Both the position numbers and the translations under genes were made by a program. Shown in pieces: positions 2,194 through 17,457 of a DNA stretch of 46,033 bases. This DNA is from an uncultured Gammaproteobacteria bacterium (GTDB lineage: Bacteria > Pseudomonadota > Gammaproteobacteria > Arenicellales > JAANXG01): assembly GCA_945787105.1 (NCBI GenBank), contig CALZGZ010000029.1:1-46033 (forward strand), given 5' to 3'. The notes beneath the pieces are model-generated. The model was given only the letters and a program-made list of their open reading frames with translations. It was not told where the DNA came from and ran no database searches. How positions within the stretch are numbered: position 1 is the first letter of the stretch; each line of letters starts with the position of its first letter.

Positions 2194-2754
2194 TCAATGC
2201 TTACCCTTGAGGTGCAAATCGACGACGATCTCAACCTCGAACCCAATGATTGGGTCGGATTCCCACTCACCGATTCCGATCTTATAGTCTGTGCGCTGCA
2301 ATATGGTTTTACCCTTGAGTCGTGCACCATTGTCAACCCCGCTCCACGCAAAAGGTAACCCAATACTGTGGGTGATACCTTTTATGGTAAGCCGCCCGGC
2401 TACTTCGAAGGCCCCGGCTCCAGTTTGACGGAAACCGGTGGATACAAATCGAGCCTGGGGAAATTTCTTGGCGTTGAACCACTCTAACCCGAGCATGCCC
2501 TCGTCCCGGTCGGCACTGTCGCTGTTGACGGAAGTAATATCCACGACCACATCAAAAACCCCCTCCTCGGGGTGCTGGGGGTCAAACCGAATACGGGCTT
2601 CGAAGTGCTCAAAGCGGGCCTCCAAGCCAACGCCGTCATAAGTCGCAATGAATCCCAATCGGCTGTGGTCGTTATCGACGATCCACTCGGTTGCAGCAGC
2701 CGTCGCGCTGAACACGCTGCAAATCAGCATTGTTGCCGCCGGCTGCAAAGACAT
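2194..2754 (-). CDS. YceI family periplasmic protein (first of two)
   Basis: A 186-residue protein with an N-terminal signal peptide (MLICSVFSATAAA then TEW) followed by a complete YceI domain: the family opening W-x-VDNDHSRLGF, the GEF-like region (EARFEHFEARIRFDPQHPEE), the FDVVVDITSVNSDSADRDE segment, FPQARFVST, and the GRLTIKGITHSIGLP motif. YceI proteins are lipocalin-like beta barrels that bind isoprenoid chains in the periplasm. It is the last gene of a minus-strand cluster; its ATG overlaps the TGA of the cytochrome b561 gene by one base (TGATG), which suggests translational coupling. The pairing of YceI with cytochrome b561 is common and suggests a quinone-related role (inference). 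Confidence 0.9.
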   Translation of the reverse strand: MSLQPAATMLICSVFSATAAATEWIVDNDHSRLGFIATYDGVGLEARFEHFEARIRFDPQHPEEGVFDVVVDITSVNSDSADRDEGMLGLEWFNAKKFPQARFVSTGFRQTGAGAFEVAGRLTIKGITHSIGLPFAWSGVDNGARLKGKTILQRTDYKIGIGEWESDPIIGFEVEIVVDLHLKGKH

Positions 2755-3374
2755 CAGTCCGCCGCTTTCCGCAAACGTCGCGTTGTTCCGGGCAACATAC
2801 GCGTCAATATCTCATCCCGTTGCACGAAGTGATGCCAAAGCGCGGCCCCAATATGCAGCAGCAGCAATGCGACAAGTATCCAAAAAAACGTGAAATGTAC
2901 GAGTTCGGCTTGGGTCTGTAAGGCCTTGCCTGCGGGCGCAATGTTTGGCAACCGGATCAGACCATATAGCTTTAACGGAAAGTTTGCGGCGGAGTTGATT
3001 ACCCATCCGCTCAACGGCATCGTCACCATCACCAGGTACATCAGCATATGGCTCGTGTGGGCCAGGCGTCGTTCCCAGGTTCGCATATGATTTGGTAGTG
3101 CCGGAGTCCGGTCAGTCAGGCGCCAAGCTATTCGCAACAGCACGAGGATGAGTATGCTGATACCGAGTGATTTGTGCCAAACAAACAATTTGATCTTGGT
3201 GGGTGACATCGGGTAATTCACTGCGATCCAACCAAGCACAAACATGCCAAGGATCATCACCGCGATCAGCCAGTGCAACGTCTTGGCGATTCGGCCCCAG
3301 CTGTGGTCACTGTTGCGAACTGCCAACCTTTTGTTCGAGGATGCCCTCGACCTCCAGACGGATATGTACCTCAT
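2754..3374 (-). CDS. Cytochrome b561 family membrane protein
   Basis: Four hydrophobic helices carry the histidines expected for two b hemes: LHWLIAVMILGMFVLGW, FVWHKSLGISILILVLL, HTSHMLMYLVMVTMPLSGW, and VHFTFFWILVALLLLHIG followed by HH. The CybB-type proteins move electrons from the quinol pool in the inner membrane. The longest frame gives 206 residues but overlaps the upstream YceI gene by 68 bases, and its first 17 residues look unlike the family. An in-frame TTG at 3326 (about 20 bases overlap) is a plausible real start, so the N terminus is uncertain. It lies between two YceI genes and is coupled to the downstream one. Confidence 0.88.
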   Translation of the reverse strand: MRYISVWRSRASSNKRLAVRNSDHSWGRIAKTLHWLIAVMILGMFVLGWIAVNYPMSPTKIKLFVWHKSLGISILILVLLRIAWRLTDRTPALPNHMRTWERRLAHTSHMLMYLVMVTMPLSGWVINSAANFPLKLYGLIRLPNIAPAGKALQTQAELVHFTFFWILVALLLLHIGAALWHHFVQRDEILTRMLPGTTRRLRKAAD

Positions 3375-3986: not shown

Positions 3987-5675
3987 TCAGGATCCAGCTG
4001 TTTTTTCGATCTTCGCCCAGGTGTCGCGCAGGGTAACCGTGCGGTTGAACACCGGATGGTTGCGGCTATGATCTTGGCGATCGGCACAAAAATATCCTTG
4101 CCTTTCAAATTGAAACCGCGCTTCAGGTTGTATATCAACGAGGCCTTGTTCCACTTTGCAACCAGTAAGCACGATCCTCGATTGAGGATTGAGGTGTTCG
4201 AGAAAATCAGCCTTGGCGGCGGGGTTGGGCACCCTAAACAGGCGGTCGTATAGTCTTATTTCTGCGTTTGCGGCGTGATCCGCAGAAACCCAATGGATGG
4301 TTCCTTTGACCTTCCTGCGGTCCGCGGATGATCCACCCTTAGTGGCCGGATCGTAGGTGCAGCGGATCTCGATCACCTCACCCTGGTTATCTTTGATGAC
4401 TTCGGTGCAGGTGATGTAGTAGGCATAACGTAAACGCACTTCGCGGCCCGGTGCGAGGCGAAAGAACTTTTTCGCCGGGGTTTCCATAAAATCACTGCGT
4501 TCGATGTATATGACTCCTGAGAAAGTTAACGGCCGCTGTCCCATCTGTGGATTCTTCGGATGATTACTCGCGGTTACCGTTTCAGTCTGACCTTCAGGAT
4601 AATTCTCGATCACCACTCGCAGCGGATCGAGTACACCCATTCTGCGCGGCGCCCATTGGTCTAGATCCTCCCTAATGCTATTTTCCAATACACTCATTGC
4701 GATGGTCCCCTGTTTCTTGGTCACGCCGATGCGTTCGCAAAAATCGCGTATTGACTCTGGGGTGTAGCCGCGGCGCCGCAGTCCTGAAATCGTTGGTAGA
4801 CGTGGATCATCCCATCCTGAAACGTGGCCTTCATCGACCAGCCGATTAAGTATGCGTTTGCTCATCACCGTATGTTCGAGATTCAAGCGCGCGAATTCGA
4901 TCTGCTGTGGATGACTGGGTACATCCAGCTGGTCTAATACCCAATCATATAGGGCGCGATTATCTTCGAACTCTAAAGTACATAAAGAGTGTGTGATGTC
5001 CTCTATGGCGTCGGAGACGCAGTGCGTGTAGTCGTACATCGGATAGATACACCAGCGATCGCCGGTCCGGTAGTGCGAAACATGCCGTATGCGGTACAGG
5101 ATCGGATCGCGCAAATTAATGTTAGGTGATGACATGTCGATCTTCGCGCGAAGTACATGTTGTCCATCTTCAAATTTGCCGGCACGCATTGCCACGAACA
5201 GTTTTAGATTTTCCTCCACGGTACGACCACGATAGGGACTTTCCTTGCCGGGTTTTGTCAACGTGCCCCGGTACTCGCGGATCTCGTCGCCGGTCAAGCT
5301 GTCAACGTACGCTTTCCCTTGTTTAATTAGCTCGATCGCGTAGTCGTAGAGTTGTTCGAAGTAATCGGATGCGAAGCGTAGGGCGCTCCATTGGTAGCCC
5401 AACCATGTAATGTCATCGCCTATGGATTGGACATACTCCAAGCTTTCTCTCTCGGGATTGGTGTCGTCAAAGCGCAGATTGCAGGTACCCTGATAATCCT
5501 TGGCGATGCCGAAATTGAGGCAGATGGATTTTGCGTGTCCGATGTGCAGGTAACCGTTTGGTTCCGGCGGAAACCGAGTGGCTACCCGGCCTTGGTTTTT
5601 GTTTTGAGCCAGGTCAGTATCAATGGTGTTACGAATAAAATTGCTAATTGCGGATTTTTCCACTGTACGCGACAA
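3987..5675 (-). CDS. glnS: Glutaminyl-tRNA synthetase
   Basis: A full-length 562-residue class Ic aminoacyl-tRNA synthetase that charges tRNA-Gln with glutamine. The ATP-binding HIGH motif is at residues 44-47 within [15 protein letters not shown], and the KMSKS-like motif appears as VMSKR about halfway. GlnRS-type signatures such as [24 protein letters not shown] and the two C-terminal anticodon-binding beta barrels (ending near [13 protein letters not shown]) are all present. The end [21 protein letters not shown] region is typical of bacterial GlnRS. Presence of GlnRS, rather than only GluRS plus GatCAB, fits a gammaproteobacterium. It is the first gene of the minus-strand cluster with the YceI and cytochrome b561 genes. 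Confidence 0.97.
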
Positions 5676-10515: not shown

Positions 10516-10926
10516 TCAACGCGGGTCGTCGGGTTCGGCGTCGAGCTGTAGCCGCCGATAGTATTCTTCCATCTCTCTACCGACGTCCTCAGCCGGGGTG
10601 CTTGTTGCCGCTGCACCTTGCCCGGTTTCGTCGGGGCTCGCTCCGGTGGCAATGCCGTAGCCGCCGGTCTCGGCGCCGATGGCGGCGTCAGCATCGTCGC
10701 CGGCCGCGCCATAACCCCCGGTTTCTACAGCAGCTCCGGAGGTAACAGGGGTCTCGGCGTCATCGGAGGCCGACCCGTAACCCCCTGCCTCAACCTGCGG
10801 GTCAGATTCGCCGGCGACCGGCGCCGGCGAGGAACGGCGGTACTGGCTGTGATCGAGGGCCACGAACATCGCGCCCAACACGATGGCCGCGCCCATAATC
10901 CCGCGGTTACGACGCTTCACCGACAT
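10516..10926 (-). CDS. Small membrane-anchored GGYG-repeat protein, function unknown
   Basis: A 136-residue protein beginning MSVKRRNRGIMGAAIVLGAM, a short basic stretch and one hydrophobic helix, which suggests an N-terminal anchor with the rest outside the cytoplasm. The remainder is low-complexity, acidic and Ala/Gly-rich, with three imperfect repeats of about 21 residues built on GGYG (AGGYGSASDDAE, TGGYGAAGDDAD, TGGYGIATGASPDE), then a helical tail (GREMEEYYRRLQLDAEPDD). I do not recognise a family. The ATG at 10926 is chosen because it overlaps the TGA of the YeeE/YedE gene by one base (TGATG); upstream in-frame starts would overlap that gene more deeply. The coupling suggests it works with the transporter, which is inference. 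Confidence 0.65.
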   Translation of the reverse strand: MSVKRRNRGIMGAAIVLGAMFVALDHSQYRRSSPAPVAGESDPQVEAGGYGSASDDAETPVTSGAAVETGGYGAAGDDADAAIGAETGGYGIATGASPDETGQGAAATSTPAEDVGREMEEYYRRLQLDAEPDDPR

Positions 10927-12122
10927 CAACGCGGCGGCGGGTCCAGATGCATGCGCACGCGCAATCGGACGCCGACCACACTGCCGGTGAATCCCGCTAC
11001 CAGCCACAGCCAACCATGCATGCTGCCCGATCCGATGCCGGCCAGCAACGCGCCGATATTGCAGCCGAAGGCAAGTCGGGCACCGTAACCGAGGAGCAAA
11101 CCCCCAATTATCGACGCCACAAGACGTTCGCGTTTGATACGGTCCTCGGGCGCGAACTTACCGGCGAGCGCTGCGGCCAGCACTGCGCCAAGAATAAGCC
11201 CGAAGTTCATGATCGAGATGTTGTCGGCCAACACGCTGCGCGACAGGGCGACAGCGGGGTATCCGGAACTCCAATACGGCCACGAGGCAGCATCACCACC
11301 GATCGCCGTCCAGATCTTCGCGCCCCACAGGCCGAAGGCGAAGGTGATTGACCACGGATGCCCGGCAATCAGCAGGGTCAGCAGGTTGAATGCCGCCAAA
11401 CCGATCACCCCCCACAACAACGGCCAGGGACCCAGAATCAACCGGTCGGTAAAGCTGCTATCTGCGGTTTTCGCGGCAAACAGTGGTTCAATGTTTCCAT
11501 GACGTTGCCGTTCTACCGCTAGCACCACGGCATATAAGGCGATCAGACACAACCCTTGCGCCACCAGCGCAGGACCCCAACCCAATGCGGTGATGAGGGA
11601 TAGCTTGCCGAAGCTGGGTAGGGCCAGCCACCAGTGAAGATGGGCGGACGCGACGGTGGCGCCGATAATGAAGAACACCAAGGTGACAAGCATCGCGACG
11701 TGACCACCGCCGACGGTGAACAGGGTCCCGGATCCGCAGCCACCACCCAGCTGCATACCGATGCCGAACATAAACGCGCCGATCAGCACCGAAAGGCCCA
11801 CCGGCGCGACCGCCGCTTGCGCGTTGATGCCGGGAAACAACTGGCCGAGCACCGGGAAAAACAACGTGGACGTCAGGCCCAGCAAGAGTATCTGGGCACG
11901 CGCACTCGTGCTGCGGCGTTCGCGGATCAAACGTCGCCAGCCGCCTGCGAATCCGAACGCGGCATGCAGCAAGGTCACACCGAGTCCGGTACCGATCAGA
12001 AACAGCAGTGATTGCCGAGTCTGAAACTCGTTCTGCAGAAACAGACTGACCGCTAACAGGGCCAATAGCGTCATCAATGCTACGGGTTTGTCAGGTGTCA
12101 CTACAGAAGCGGATGTTTGCAT
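10926..12122 (-). CDS. YeeE/YedE family transporter (thiosulfate/sulfur-compound uptake type)
   Basis: A 398-residue membrane protein with many hydrophobic helices and the two pseudo-symmetric signature loops of the family: QLGGGCGSGTLFTVGGGH in the first half and GYGARLAFGCNIGALLAGIG in the second, each with a conserved cysteine. Family members such as TsuA carry thiosulfate across the inner membrane using these cysteines; others are linked to selenium or other sulfur species. The length fits the full-length, single-chain form rather than split short YeeE proteins. It is the first gene of a two-gene unit with the GGYG-repeat protein, and it diverges from an ABC importer plus sulfotransferase operon across a 741-base gap. 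The exact substrate is inferred. Confidence 0.9.
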   Translation of the reverse strand: MQTSASVVTPDKPVALMTLLALLAVSLFLQNEFQTRQSLLFLIGTGLGVTLLHAAFGFAGGWRRLIRERRSTSARAQILLLGLTSTLFFPVLGQLFPGINAQAAVAPVGLSVLIGAFMFGIGMQLGGGCGSGTLFTVGGGHVAMLVTLVFFIIGATVASAHLHWWLALPSFGKLSLITALGWGPALVAQGLCLIALYAVVLAVERQRHGNIEPLFAAKTADSSFTDRLILGPWPLLWGVIGLAAFNLLTLLIAGHPWSITFAFGLWGAKIWTAIGGDAASWPYWSSGYPAVALSRSVLADNISIMNFGLILGAVLAAALAGKFAPEDRIKRERLVASIIGGLLLGYGARLAFGCNIGALLAGIGSGSMHGWLWLVAGFTGSVVGVRLRVRMHLDPPPR

Positions 12123-12863: not shown

Positions 12864-13892
12864 ATGACATTTCAATTGAAAACGTTTTCTAAAATTCTGC
12901 TAGCGGCCACGCTTATCGTGGGCGTGTCGGGCCAGGCCCGCGCCAGAACCACGCTCGAGATGGCCTACATGCCGATCGTTCCGTGCAGCCAACTTTTCGT
13001 GATCGAAGGTATGGGCTGGGCCAAGGATGCCGGGATCGATCTCAAGCTGACGCGGTTTCCCAACGGCCCGGCGATCGTCCAGGCCATTGCCTCCGGCAAG
13101 ATGGACGTCATGTGTTTCGGCATCGGGCCCGCCATGGTCACCCGCGGCAAGGGCATCAAGCTCAAGGTCATCGCCGCCGGCATCGTCAATCAGATCGGTG
13201 TCATTGCTCAGGGTGATCTGGTCGAGTACTTCGAAAAGCACAAGAATGGGAAGGATGCACTGATGGCTTTTGCCAAGGACAAGGGCCGCAAACCCAAGAT
13301 TGCGAGCTTTCCCAAGGGCTCGGTCCCCGATACGGTGACTCGTCACTGGCTGCTGCGCTCGCTGGGAATGCAGCTAAGCGATGTTGAATTGATCGGCATG
13401 GGCGCCGCCCGCGTGCAACAGGCGCTGTTGTCGCGCTCCGTGGATGCTGCCGGGATCTTGGAGCCGATCCTGACCATCGTCGAGAGCAAGCTGCCGGACG
13501 CCAAGGTGGTTGCCCGGGCAACGGAAATGATGGACGGTCAGCCCGGTTCCACCATCGCCGCCCGTGAGGGCGTCATTGCCAATCACCGCGATGCGCTCGT
13601 CAAGCTTATCGAACTGCATATCAAGGCCACCGAGCTATTGAAGAACGACCCGGCCAAGGCGGCGCCGCATGTGAAGAACTTCGTCGCCAAGGGTCTGATC
13701 GACGTAGAGACCATACAAAAGTCCCTTGAGTCGCCGTCGTCCAACTTCAAGGCCAATCCAGAAGAAATTAAGGACGGCACCCAGTACATGCACGACTTTC
13801 AGAAGAGCGAGAAGATTAAGACCAACGTGTCCGTTGACGGCTTGTTCGACTTCAGCATCTACAAGGATGCCGCTAAGAATCTCGGCATGTAG
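12864..13892 (+). CDS. ABC transporter substrate-binding protein, NitT/TauT (NMT1-like) type
   Basis: A 342-residue periplasmic binding protein with a signal peptide cleaved after about residue 27 (LLAATLIVGVSGQARA, then RTTLEMAY). The family pattern is clear: YMPIVPCSQLFVIEGMGWAK, the GKMDVMCFGIGPAMV loop, and the hinge segment SFPKGSVPDTVTRHWLL. This type delivers nitrate, sulfonates, taurine, aromatics or pyrimidine precursors to an inner-membrane permease. It is followed by a matching permease and ATPase and then by a sulfotransferase, and a sulfur-transporter gene lies upstream in the opposite direction. A sulfur-containing or sulfated substrate is suggested by this context only. AAGGAGGG upstream indicates strong translation. 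Confidence 0.9.
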   Translation: MTFQLKTFSKILLAATLIVGVSGQARARTTLEMAYMPIVPCSQLFVIEGMGWAKDAGIDLKLTRFPNGPAIVQAIASGKMDVMCFGIGPAMVTRGKGIKLKVIAAGIVNQIGVIAQGDLVEYFEKHKNGKDALMAFAKDKGRKPKIASFPKGSVPDTVTRHWLLRSLGMQLSDVELIGMGAARVQQALLSRSVDAAGILEPILTIVESKLPDAKVVARATEMMDGQPGSTIAAREGVIANHRDALVKLIELHIKATELLKNDPAKAAPHVKNFVAKGLIDVETIQKSLESPSSNFKANPEEIKDGTQYMHDFQKSEKIKTNVSVDGLFDFSIYKDAAKNLGM

Positions 13893-13931
13893 CGACGCCG
13901 TTTTGCAGAAGAGACAACGTCGGCCGTTAAT

Positions 13932-14684
13932 GTGAAATCCAGCACACGGTATTTCCTGTCGGCTGTTGGGCTGGTCGGGTTCCTGTTGATCTGGGAGGGC
14001 ATCGCGCGCAGCGGGTTGTTCGCAACCTACCTGCTGCCTCCGCCCAGCACCATTCCGGCCGCCTTGATTTCAGAGATCCGCGAGGGTATCTGGCAGGTGA
14101 TGGTGGTCGCCAGCCTGCGTCACTATAGCGTCGGATTTGTGCTCGGTTCGGTCCTCGGTGTTGGCCTGGGGGTCATGGTGGCCTTATTCCCGCGGATCGA
14201 GGCCGGCCAGGCCTGGCTGGCCCGGGTCCTGCGTCCGATTCCGCCGTTGGCGTGGATTCCGTTTGCCATCATTTGGTTTGGGATCACGGAGACGGCGGCT
14301 GCGTTCATCATCTCCATCGGCATCTTCTGGATCAACTATTTTACCGCCATGGGTGCGGTCCAGGCGGTGGACAAGGATCTGATCGAGGTCGCCCGCGCCT
14401 TCGGCCACCGTTCTTTTCCGGCGCTGCTGCGTAAGGTCATCTTGCCGGGCGCCGCGCCGGGTATCCTTAGTGGGCTGCGCGCCGGTCTGGGCCAGGGTTG
14501 GATGACAGTGGTGGCGGCGGAGCTGTTTGGGATTCAAGGTATCGGCCAACGCATGATAGAGGCCTCAGGTCTGCTGGCGTCGAACGTGGTCATCCTCTAC
14601 ATGTTCTCCATCGCCTTACTCTATGGGGTCAGCGACTACGTATTCGTGCTCGTTCAAAAAAGGATCCTGGCGTGGCAAAGATAA
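13932..14684 (+). CDS. ABC transporter permease, NitT/TauT type
   Basis: A 250-residue permease with about six hydrophobic helices. The cytoplasmic EAA loop that docks the ATPase is visible as EVARAFGHRSFPALLRKVIL followed by PGAAPGILSGLRAGLGQGW. The RPIPPLAWIPFAIIWFG stretch is typical of the SsuC/TauC/NrtB group. It starts at GTG 13932, shortly after the binding-protein gene, and the ATPase gene starts inside its last codons. It would form the channel as a homodimer with the neighbouring ATPase. Confidence 0.92.
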   Translation: MKSSTRYFLSAVGLVGFLLIWEGIARSGLFATYLLPPPSTIPAALISEIREGIWQVMVVASLRHYSVGFVLGSVLGVGLGVMVALFPRIEAGQAWLARVLRPIPPLAWIPFAIIWFGITETAAAFIISIGIFWINYFTAMGAVQAVDKDLIEVARAFGHRSFPALLRKVILPGAAPGILSGLRAGLGQGWMTVVAAELFGIQGIGQRMIEASGLLASNVVILYMFSIALLYGVSDYVFVLVQKRILAWQR

Positions 14685-15442
14685 TCGAAACCCAGGATCT
14701 GGCCGTCGCCTTTGCCGAAGGGGATGGCCACAATATTATCTTCCGTCACTTGAACGTGAGCGTTGAGAAGGGAGAATTCGTGACCCTGGTCGGTGTATCG
14801 GGAGCGGGTAAATCCACGTTACTGCGGGTCATTGCCGATCTCATCCCGCCCTACGAGGGATCGGTCAAGCTCGATGCGGCACACGACCCGACGCGACGAC
14901 CGATCGCAATGGTTTTTCAGGCGGCGTTGCTGATGCCCTGGCGCAAGGTTGGGGACAACATCTCGCTCGGCTTGGACGGCATCGACGTGCCGGCGGCGGT
15001 GAAAAAGGAAAGGGTGGAATGGACTCTCGAGCTCGTCGGCCTTGCCGGCTATGAGGACCGCTGGCCGTATCAGCTATCCGGCGGCCAGCGCCAGCGCATT
15101 GGCATCGCCCGGGCGTTGGCCGTTGACCCGGCTATCCTGCTGATGGATGAACCGTTCGGGGCGCTCGACGCCATTACCCGCACCGGTCTGCAGGACGAGT
15201 TGCTGCGCATCTGGCAGGAGACCCATAAATCTATCCTGTTTGTCACCCACGACATTGAGGAAGCCGTGTATCTTGGGGATCGGGTGCTACTACTGGGCGA
15301 CAAGCCGGCACATATCGTCAACGAATACCACATTAACGTGGATCGCGATCAGCGCCGTGAGAGCGAACAATTTCTACTCATGGTCGACGAGGTAAAGGCC
15401 GGCCTGTTGGCGGCTATGGCCTTGAGTAACGGCAGTGGGTAG
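14672..15442 (+). CDS. ABC transporter ATP-binding protein, NitT/TauT type
   Basis: A 256-residue ATPase with Walker A GVSGAGKST, Q-loop MVFQAALLMPW, signature LSGGQRQR, Walker B ILLMDEPFGALD and the switch histidine in FVTHDIEEA. These match the SsuB/TauB/NrtC-D group. The GTG start at 14672 is chosen because it begins the family's N terminus, has AGGA about seven bases upstream, and overlaps the permease end by 13 bases, which is typical coupling. The frame continues upstream but that part is inside the permease gene. It energises import by the preceding two gene products. Confidence 0.93.
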   Translation: MAKIIETQDLAVAFAEGDGHNIIFRHLNVSVEKGEFVTLVGVSGAGKSTLLRVIADLIPPYEGSVKLDAAHDPTRRPIAMVFQAALLMPWRKVGDNISLGLDGIDVPAAVKKERVEWTLELVGLAGYEDRWPYQLSGGQRQRIGIARALAVDPAILLMDEPFGALDAITRTGLQDELLRIWQETHKSILFVTHDIEEAVYLGDRVLLLGDKPAHIVNEYHINVDRDQRRESEQFLLMVDEVKAGLLAAMALSNGSG

Positions 15443-15486
15443 ATCACCGGTACGCCCGTTACCAACGTTTGGGGGTAAATGTAACT

Positions 15487-16647
15487 ATGTCTTTGACGCT
15501 TAACGAACGTCCCGTCTTCGTTCTCGGTTCCGAACGCTCGGGGACGACCTTGATCATGGCGATCCTCGGCTGCCATCCCCGTCTTGCGGTACCGGAGGTC
15601 GCCTGGTACTACCCCCGTTTCCGGCCGTACCTGTTCACCTATGGCGACCTGAGCGAAATCGAAAATTTCCGCACCCTGTGTCGTGAAATGGCCTATGGCC
15701 TGCGCACGCCGTTTTGGGGTATGACGGTGAACCCCGCCACATTTGGCGATGAGATCGCACAACGCGCACTCGCCCTGGAGCCGAGTTTCGCCGGTGTCTA
15801 TGCAGCCATGCTCGAGCGCTATGCCGAACAGCAGGGCAAGCCGCGTTGGGGCGAGAAGACCCCTTACAACCTTTTTTATGTGGAGCAGATTCTGGAGGAC
15901 TTTCCCAACGCCCAGTTCGTCTTTATCTACCGCGACGGACGCGACGTCAGCGCGGAGTTCCTGGATTCCTCGTTTGGCCCCACCAACATCTATAGCGCCG
16001 CGGAGCTGTGGCTGATGGGCCAAGCGGCGGTGAAGCCATGGCGGGAGGCATTGCCGGCCGATCAGTGGTTCGACATCAAATACGAAGACTTCGTGCGGGC
16101 CCCGGAGGAGCACCTCAAACGGCTGTGCGCTTATCTGCAGGAAGACTACAGCGACGCGTTGATGGGGTTTCATACCACCCCGATCGCCAAACGGCGCGGC
16201 AAGACCAAGGACAATTGGGCGGTGGCCGAGCCCATATCGGGCAAGCACGTGGGGATCTACAAAGATTTGTTGAGCATCCGCGATCAGCGGATCATGGCCG
16301 CGGTGGCCGGTGATGCACTGCGAGAATTCGGCTATGACAACGTTCTCGAGCCGCTGGACCTGAGCCCCGAGCAAATTGCTTTGATGGATGAAATGGATGG
16401 GCGCTACCGGGCGGCCACACTCGATGGCCCCGGCGGTTGGATTGTGATCGAAAGTTACAACGACTGGCTCCTCGATCAACGTGCGGCCCGCCGTGCAGCG
16501 GGTCTGTGGTCTCAGATTCCGGATCCGCCGCCATTTCCCATTGGCCACAAGCACGAGGAATACCTTTCCGGCATGCGCGCCAAACGCCAATGGAAGGACC
16601 ACTTCTGCATCAAACGGGAATACTCGCGCGCAAAGGCAGTGCTCTAA
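15487..16647 (+). CDS. PAPS-dependent sulfotransferase family protein
   Basis: A 386-residue protein with the 5'-phosphosulfate-binding loop GSERSGTT at residues 14-21 and the 3'-phosphate-binding region FVFIYRDGRDVSAEF with Arg149. Such enzymes move a sulfuryl group from PAPS onto hydroxyl or amino groups; the Sulfotransfer_3-type subgroup is common in bacteria. The serine that usually lies eight residues after the arginine is a glutamate here (a serine sits two residues earlier), so strict PAPS use should be treated with some caution. The ATG at 15487 is preferred to an upstream TTG at 15469. It begins 44 bases after the ABC ATPase gene and is probably in its operon; the acceptor is unknown. 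Confidence 0.85.
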   Translation: MSLTLNERPVFVLGSERSGTTLIMAILGCHPRLAVPEVAWYYPRFRPYLFTYGDLSEIENFRTLCREMAYGLRTPFWGMTVNPATFGDEIAQRALALEPSFAGVYAAMLERYAEQQGKPRWGEKTPYNLFYVEQILEDFPNAQFVFIYRDGRDVSAEFLDSSFGPTNIYSAAELWLMGQAAVKPWREALPADQWFDIKYEDFVRAPEEHLKRLCAYLQEDYSDALMGFHTTPIAKRRGKTKDNWAVAEPISGKHVGIYKDLLSIRDQRIMAAVAGDALREFGYDNVLEPLDLSPEQIALMDEMDGRYRAATLDGPGGWIVIESYNDWLLDQRAARRAAGLWSQIPDPPPFPIGHKHEEYLSGMRAKRQWKDHFCIKREYSRAKAVL

Positions 16648-16809
16648 CCGCGATTCGGCGCGCAGGCCACTCGAGCTACGTGCCCTGTTAAGCAACCGTT
16701 GAACACAATGGTGATCGAAAATTTGGGTCACAGGTGGTGACGCCGTCCCGGAGTGATGCGGTTGTGATATATTTTTGTAGTGATTAGCCCGCAACAGCAA
16801 CTTGTGTTC

Positions 16810-17457
16810 GTGAGCCAAATTAGTTTCCGCATTCGCACGCTTGGCATGGGGATCGTCGCCACAGCCGCGGCAGCATTGGTGGCGTCCTGTGTCAGTACCG
16901 CGCCCAAATATCCCGCCCCCGTGGTTGCCCCGCTACCAGAGCCAGCCCAGGTCACCAAGGCCTATCCTGTCGAGCGATCCCCCGCAGTTGTTGGTGAGGA
17001 GCTCAAGGGTGGCGTATTGCCGGATACAGCAGGACCTGGGGCATTGCTGGGTATATCGCTCAACGGGACACCCGTGTATCTGTCCGATTATCACGGCAAG
17101 GTCGTCGTTGCGAGTTATTGGGCGAGCTGGTGTCCACCGTGTTGGACCGAGCTACCCCAGTTGGAAGACATTCGCACCGAGTACAACGGCCGAGCTGTTG
17201 AGATCATTGCGATAAATGTCGGCGAAGTCCGATCCGCCATCGACAGCTTCTTGCAACAGCAACAAAAACCGTTGCGATTCACCATCGTGTCTGATCGCGC
17301 TGGGCAGGCATCCGTCATCCACGGGGTCAAGGCGGTACCCAGCACACTCATTTTCGATGCCGAGGGAAAGGTATCCAAGCGATACGCCGGGGCGTTTGGA
17401 TTCAACGCCCAACGGATACGCAGCGACATCGACACACTGCTCAGTCATCGGGGTTGA
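16810..17457 (+). CDS. Thioredoxin-like (TlpA/ResA type) lipoprotein
   Basis: A redoxin-domain protein with an N-terminal lipobox VASC after a basic and hydrophobic stretch (RIRTLGMGIVATAAAALVASC). It therefore should be a lipid-anchored, cell-envelope protein. The catalytic motif is WCPPC in SYWASWCPPCWTELPQLE, and the cis-proline region is GVKAVPSTLIFDAEGKV. A proline-rich linker of about 40 residues follows the lipobox. TlpA-like proteins reduce disulfides, for instance during cytochrome c maturation; two c-type cytochrome genes lie just downstream. The start is uncertain: GTG codons at 16780, 16804 and 16810 are in frame and none has a good ribosome-binding site. Confidence 0.85.
   Translation: MSQISFRIRTLGMGIVATAAAALVASCVSTAPKYPAPVVAPLPEPAQVTKAYPVERSPAVVGEELKGGVLPDTAGPGALLGISLNGTPVYLSDYHGKVVVASYWASWCPPCWTELPQLEDIRTEYNGRAVEIIAINVGEVRSAIDSFLQQQQKPLRFTIVSDRAGQASVIHGVKAVPSTLIFDAEGKVSKRYAGAFGFNAQRIRSDIDTLLSHRG

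Follow-up and report, generated by a model that had tools for sequence, protein, structure and literature searches.

A small membrane-anchored protein with GGYG repeats encoded next to a YeeE/YedE transporter belongs to a family of proteins with variable, mostly cysteine-containing tails

The gene pair and its products

The stretch of DNA analysed here (hereinafter, the window: 46,033 nucleotides of contig CALZGZ010000029.1 from an uncultured gammaproteobacterium) encodes, on the reverse strand, a 398-residue transporter of the YeeE/YedE (Sulf_transp) family (10926..12122) and, directly after it, a protein of 136 amino acids (10516..10926), the ATG of which visibly overlaps the transporter stop codon in the sequence TGATG. 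The small protein, with all its features on the same strand, contains one hydrophobic, predicted membrane segment near the N-terminus (residues 9-24; 10855..10902), directly followed by Asp25-His26 (10849..10854), a family signature as discussed below; three GGYG motifs (residues 48-51, 70-73 and 88-91; 10774..10785, 10708..10719 and 10654..10665, respectively); and a C-terminal MEEYYRRL motif (residues 119-126; 10549..10572) that resembles the ends of small proteins encoded in a TusA-linked YeeE operon. It contains no cysteine. The original prediction had described this pair of open reading frames with one membrane anchor, three GGYG repeats and the TGATG overlap, and all of these are confirmed in the sequence.

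The AF2 model of the small protein (mean pLDDT 56.2) is of low confidence except for a membrane helix spanning residues 3-31; the tail is predicted to be disordered, with pLDDT below 50 at residues 42-97 and 99-106, and a low-confidence helix (residues 112-129) spans the MEEYYRRL end. In agreement with the original prediction, which assigned the protein to no described family, it matched none of the Pfam and NCBIfam families (for Pfam, nothing was listed even at E values up to 10) and no PHROG significantly (best E 0.63). The GGYG motif is reminiscent of sulfur globule and keratin-like proteins, an affinity that was rejected given the three spaced motifs beside a transporter and the absence of a Pfam match. 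The sulfur-carrier arm of SoxY carries GGCGG, so that the glycine-rich, flexible tail could be likened to this arm, with GGYG standing for GGCG and tyrosine for cysteine; however, this is a resemblance only, the small protein having neither a Pfam match to SoxY (PF13501) nor a cysteine.

The repeats themselves are maintained by selection. None of 200,000 shuffled versions of the tail contained three or more GGYG motifs. When the window genome was compared with four of its five congeners (the more diverged G002 was omitted), the GGYG codons showed pS of 0.241 (9 changes per 37.3 sites) and pN of 0.010 (1 per 97.7), as opposed to pS of 0.317 and pN of 0.166 (131.6 changes per 792.2 sites) in the remaining tail codons. 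The GGYG codons are under purifying selection: they change synonymously but hardly otherwise, whereas the rest of the tail drifts, so it is the motif itself that is kept, beyond mere composition. The acidic spacers between the motifs are weakly conserved; in G003, one motif reads TSGYG instead of TGGYG; and the MEEYY[KR]RL end is present in five of the eight GGYG members, being missing from G002, G007 and G370.

The transporter is readily assigned to PF04143 (221.6 bits against a cut-off of 27), its AF2 model is confident (pLDDT 87.8), and all five PDB matches at E <= 0.001 are to TsuA/YeeE (TM 0.60-0.64 by query). It scored below the cut-offs of both NCBIfam TsuA models (NF052577, 64.8 against 400 bits; NF041049, 37.4 against 645) and of the YedE/FdhT selenium transporter model (NF033796, 137.1 against 350 bits). 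According to structural work on TsuA, the sulfur path leads from C293, the first cysteine, through C91, the second, and C22, the third, to C17 of YeeD as the fourth (PMC11073785). The window transporter retains the first two, as Cys354 (11061..11063) and Cys129 (11736..11738), each of which is a cysteine in 52 of 52 transporters aligned; in place of the third, at the YeeD interface, it has Gly57 (11952..11954), invariant in 29 of 29. Thus, the system shares with the TsuA-TsuB (YeeE-YeeD) thiosulfate uptake system the transporter family, the fold and the first and second channel cysteines, but differs from it in the third cysteine and in the identity of the partner, which is a small membrane-anchored tail protein. 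No relative of TusA/YeeD was found in the window (best TusA E 0.32 over 18 residues) or, with six TusA queries from the second operon described below, at 163 loci of the window's transporter type. In addition, all 28 transporters with a partner have W237, F261 and Y288, residues that occur in only two, none and one, respectively, of the 24 others; judged by these alignment columns, irrespective of their spatial position, the residues behave as a contact surface would.

Conservation of the small gene and the DH-tail family

The original prediction made conservation of the small gene beside the transporter in close relatives the point on which the pairing should stand or fall. Among 60 genomes, the window's own included, 13 encode the transporter, and the small gene directly follows it in all five congeners and in a sister genus (G007), so that the pairing stands. 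The same arrangement was found in a distant genus (G370); altogether, a GGYG small gene comes after the transporter at eight loci. No such gene follows the transporter at L009, L010, L011 and L013, and at L012 and L014 it is not assessable, the contigs ending at the transporter. The small protein is a genuine partner gene of the transporter. A contig scan yielded four further loci like these in MAGs (L015-L018), as well as one from the isolate HyVt-448 (L019), where the small protein has a similar N-terminus and SPCSL repeats replacing GGYG. Across the class, a search for the transporter with a threshold of E 1e-60 retrieved 26 of the 369 genomes.

The small proteins form what we call the DH-tail family, defined by a short N-terminal membrane segment that ends in Asp-His and by a tail of low complexity. 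Their genes directly follow those of a single clade of YeeE/YedE transporters with two cysteines, and the window protein has both the position and the Asp-His end. The segment ends in Asp-His in 37 of the 38 listed members and in Asp-Tyr in the remaining one (L020), a signature that is partly by construction because the family scripts searched for D[HY]. The start codon overlaps the transporter stop at 8 of 8 GGYG and 9 of 20 Cys loci, and at the other 11 lies within 21 bases of the first base of the stop codon. None of five members scanned had a Pfam match above the cut-off (best E 0.21) or a listed NCBIfam match.

The tails differ foremost in cysteine content. The eight GGYG forms, including that of the window, have none and therefore lack the Pro-Cys repeats that mark the Cys types, whereas the other 30 members have between 1 and 28 cysteines, most of them following proline. 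The Cys types comprise SPC[SG]L repeats; the ACAPCGAPCPS type, seen among others in Marinobacter L061 and Halomonas L080; SPCGM at the extreme end (the alphaproteobacterium L020 and Pelagibacteraceae L040, with L231 similar); and NPCAA/NPCGA repeats with 20-28 cysteines (L222, L226 and L227). The last three members come from a single family (f252) in another class of the phylum and carry their 20-28 Pro-Cys repeats in a single tail. The hydrophobic segment of SPC-type members terminates in AVA-like residues and may thus be a cleaved signal peptide; arginine and histidine also follow the membrane segment, so that charge favours neither orientation.

Profile searches delimited the family. Profile A1 matched 22 of the 109 genomes of the order at E 0.05, seven of them strongly and all seven known GGYG genomes; the 15 other, short matches (E 0.008-0.05) were treated as noise. 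Profile A3 matched 31 of 369 class genomes at E 0.01, with 19 at 3.9e-5 or better and then a gap to 1.7e-3, beyond which the 12 matches were taken for noise; 15 of the 19 were rows of the profile, so that for these adjacency to the transporter is by construction. Among the four others, the genes of G180 and G262 were already known beside the transporter, that of G175 lies beside a transporter truncated at the end of its contig, and that of G301 has no adjoining transporter in the stretch covered. Among named records, Cys forms are found, for example, in Marinobacter sp. F3R11 (L061), in one MAG each of Pelagibacteraceae (L040) and Halomonas (L080), and in pSymB of Sinorhizobium meliloti (CP130053.1; L279). 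The latter has rhodanese matches, a YeeE/YedE gene (WKL29911.1), a Cys-tail open reading frame at 4655, which is absent from the itself incomplete PLSDB gene table, and a DUF6969 match; the rhodanese matches (2415-3327) fall in two reading frames, and the gene may be broken in this record.

A secreted rhodanese accompanies the Cys tails

Clustering of 20 neighbourhoods brought out two conserved components, a two-domain rhodanese (PF00581) with a signal-peptide-like N-terminus and DUF6969. The rhodanese is encoded beside the transporter at 25 of 26 assessable Cys-tail loci, as opposed to none of the eight GGYG loci and 1 of the 103 that lack the small gene; some loci may represent one species in two collections, and the flanks of part of the loci, about 1.5 kb, could miss a more distant rhodanese. 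The script, which allowed tails of up to 420 amino acids, scored 140 loci and called 25 with a Cys tail and the rhodanese, three with a Cys tail only, 103 with neither gene and one with the rhodanese only (L143). Of the three exceptions, L019 ends too early, L062 is false, its small gene being by eye a wrong-frame reading frame and hence counted as none, and L125 is real; L012 and L014 were not assessable. At L143, the rhodanese lies beside a divergent transporter, and the small gene was not found. In a sample of 26 loci from across the phylum, scored after the rule had been noticed (two further matching genomes gave no locus), all seven loci with the rhodanese have a Cys tail, and all 19 without it have no small gene.

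The same partition holds for whole genomes: close relatives of the rhodanese (E 1e-35 or better) are encoded in 15 of 17 Cys-tail genomes and in none of the eight GGYG genomes, which have only distant rhodaneses (best E 7.4e-25). The window itself contains no rhodanese (best E 0.077 over 25 residues) and no DUF6969 match of note. Two genomes, G465 (L125) and G301 (L161), encode Cys tails without a dedicated rhodanese, so the two are not strictly tied.

DUF6969 (PF22308), a His-rich protein encoded after SPC-type small genes (L182-L190, L161, L210, L279 and others), accompanies each of the 14 SPC/NPCSL-type small genes compared, that of the transporter-less L161 among them, and also occurs at the S. 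meliloti locus; it was not found at GGYG, ACAPC or SPCGM loci. A partial match occurs at L137, which has no small gene. No paper on DUF6969 was found in the open literature searched.

Direction of change

Four changes, the minimum, account for the distribution of the tail types on the transporter tree (52 sequences); none of 200 shuffles gave so low a value. The partner-bearing clade comprises 29 rows (support 97/85), with L143, on a long branch, as the single exception. Within it, the GGYG forms make up one clade inside SPCxL, with moderate support (94/80) and recovery in 92% of 200 bootstrap trees. Given this nesting, the Cys tail is most simply taken as ancestral and the GGYG tail as the derived state; by the same token, the association of GGYG with loss of the rhodanese counts as one event rather than many.

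Two candidate correlates of the switch from Cys to Tyr were rejected. SoxY is encoded in 7 of 8 GGYG, 11 of 12 SPC-type and 0 of 5 ACAPC genomes, so its presence does not account for the switch; and dsrA does not separate GGYG from SPC either (8 of 8, one below the cut-off, and 10 of 12, respectively, against 0 of 5 for ACAPC). G000, G001, G004, G301 and G465 each have two dsrA matches, with clearly unequal scores in the first three.

A second YeeE/YedE operon with TusA

The pattern E[AT]GGYG has three matches in the window's genome, all inside the small gene. Six related genomes additionally have it in another small membrane protein, TGVEPGFFELPEAGGYG...MEEYYKKLLE, the gene of which lies after those of TusA and of a 490-residue YeeE/YedE transporter in which the three cysteine motifs are complete; single matches in stretches of 16 and 12 codons (G001 and G003) were disregarded. 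This second transporter is present in 8 of 8 GGYG genomes versus 3 of 17 Cys-tail genomes, two of the latter being G465 and G301, those without the dedicated rhodanese. Its flank is assembled in seven of the eight GGYG genomes and there includes TusA and a small membrane protein with GGYG or GSYG and a YYKxL end; in the window's own genome, the gene ends 64 bases from a contig end, with the neighbours out of view. Among the 25 genomes, ten have the 490-residue transporter only, 14 the rhodanese only, one both and none neither, a near-exclusion with a Fisher p of 3.4e-6, or 2.1e-3 after close relatives were collapsed to leave 17 genomes, in lineages that are not independent.

The second small-protein family was found in 9 of 369 class genomes, all nine with the 490-residue transporter and TusA. 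Its motif is GGYG, AGYG, GSYG, GAYG or ASYG, and all nine members end in YY-x-x-L; in eight genomes, a tandem relative precedes the gene, and five of these eight relatives end in M[EK]xYY. YeeE-TusA operons with one or two small membrane proteins are seen at L262-L268 and L269-L278; at L262, a gene a few reading frames away matches DsrE marginally (22.8 bits against a cut-off of 22.7).

A putative extracytoplasmic arm

The original prediction also suggested that the protein could be a periplasmic accessory that binds the sulfur substrate or a metal, or a partner for a sulfur carrier. The accessory part stands, in that the partner gene is real and its product is probably extracytoplasmic; sulfur binding by this protein itself through GGYG is not supported, given that it has no cysteine and that the Cys-bearing forms are relatives in other lineages. 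We consider it an evenly balanced proposition that the small protein is a tethered extracytoplasmic arm, a dedicated partner that presents sulfur, or a sulfur-loaded donor, to the importer. The N-terminal segment, a predicted helix, would anchor the protein, presumably with the N-terminus inside and the tail outside, and the flexible tail would extend into the periplasm and offer its cargo at the outer mouth of the YeeE/YedE channel, near the first conserved cysteine. In the putative ancestral form suggested by the tree, the Pro-Cys tail would take sulfane sulfur as a persulfide from the co-encoded secreted rhodanese and hand it to the channel, acting as an extra cysteine ahead of the channel's first. 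In the window lineage, cysteines and rhodanese are both absent and the tail consists of E-x-G-G-Y-G repeats, with the MEEYY[KR]RL end in five of eight members. A form devoid of cysteine cannot carry sulfur on a thiol; with the rhodanese gone and the tail resembling that of the second transporter's partner, the GGYG tail is most simply read as docking another donor. It would then serve only as a docking strip, probably for one donor common to the two transporters. Exchange of tails between the two partner families, or convergence, would account for the likeness.

A more general proposal, that many YeeE/YedE importers use such an undescribed arm, with an ancestral thiol relay from rhodanese through the Pro-Cys tail to the channel cysteine, rewired in the window lineage to a docking code free of cysteine (ExGGYG, frequently combined with a YYKxL-type end) that is common to the partners of two distantly related transporters served by one donor, is put forward tentatively, and we regard it as doubtful in its entirety.

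Other roles can be envisaged. The small protein could be a structural subunit whose membrane helix stabilises or assembles the transporter while the tail stays outside sulfur handling; Asp-His being the most constant feature of the family (in part by construction), the wide variation of the tails in length and sequence and the clade-specific W237, F261 and Y288 of the transporter all fit such a role, but the far stronger constraint on the GGYG codons than on the spacers speaks against it, and it leaves unexplained both the recurrence of Pro-Cys repeats and the association with the rhodanese, so that we deem it unlikely. The rhodanese link is equally compatible with sensing, whereby the tail would plug or sense the channel mouth and regulate import, with the Cys tails responding to sulfane sulfur or redox state; indeed, SoxT1B of Hyphomicrobium is tied to signalling in the text available to us (PMC11582611). 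Up to 28 cysteines in one tail are, however, in our judgement better suited to carriage, and we find a gate or sensor rather improbable.

A RiPP-like arrangement, in which an enzyme modifies the repeats, as DUF6969 might those of the SPC type, draws on the restriction of DUF6969 to the SPC/NPCSL-type genes and the S. meliloti locus; with a partial DUF6969 match at a locus without the small gene (L137), and with the GGYG and ACAPC forms doing without this protein, such a role appears quite unlikely. The repeated cysteines of the relatives might also suggest a metal-binding or metal-sensing tail, but the window form is cysteine-free, its acidic spacers are weakly conserved, and the partner encoded with the Cys types is a rhodanese, all of which makes this highly improbable.

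Relationship to known sulfur import systems

Published systems offer partial parallels to the tethered arm. SoxT1A and SoxT1B of Hyphomicrobium denitrificans are, like the window transporter, YeeE-like sulfur importers and occur in a sulfur oxidiser, but their neighbours in the text available are DsbA and Rhd442, and DsbA or SoxS is proposed there to release sulfur from SoxYZ for the transporter (PMC11582611). A small protein encoded near soxT1A, Hden_0678, is described in the same text as an unassigned single-helix protein of 56 residues without cysteine and, compared by description only, may already point to partners of this kind in the published record. The YTD cluster (yeeE-tusA-dsrE-like), known from cable bacteria and disproportionating bacteria, resembles the second operon, which likewise combines YeeE with TusA and has a marginal DsrE gene nearby; the second operon further encodes small membrane tail proteins, one or two in number, which are unmentioned for YTD in the accessible parts of the two reports (PMC13047784, PMC13293266), and the window locus differs from this cluster in the absence of TusA.

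The transporter family is already known, whereas the partner family, the Cys-to-GGYG switch and the rhodanese link were not found in the literature; outside subscription papers and preprints, neither the Cys-tail family nor an operon combining rhodanese, YeeE and tail gene was mentioned in the sources available. Cytoplasmic sulfur import in sulfur oxidisers is termed poorly understood in the abstract of the SoxT study (PMC11582611). A small, widespread partner family coupled to an importer and, in its Cys form, to a secreted rhodanese provides concrete genes for this step, and the natural switch from Cys to GGYG offers a ready contrast for separating sulfur carriage from docking.

Several other genes of the window deserve mention. 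Downstream of the pair, past a convergent GST-like gene, a DsrE/F-like protein (PF02635; 8932-9426, reverse strand) is encoded, which is found near the pair in the five congeners too and possibly belongs to the same sulfur pathway. On the other side lies a divergent ABC operon (12864-15442, forward strand) resembling sulfonate/taurine systems, with an SsuA-like binding protein, a permease and an ATPase, followed by a sulfotransferase (15469-16647) and then a TlpA/ResA-like thioredoxin (16780-17457).
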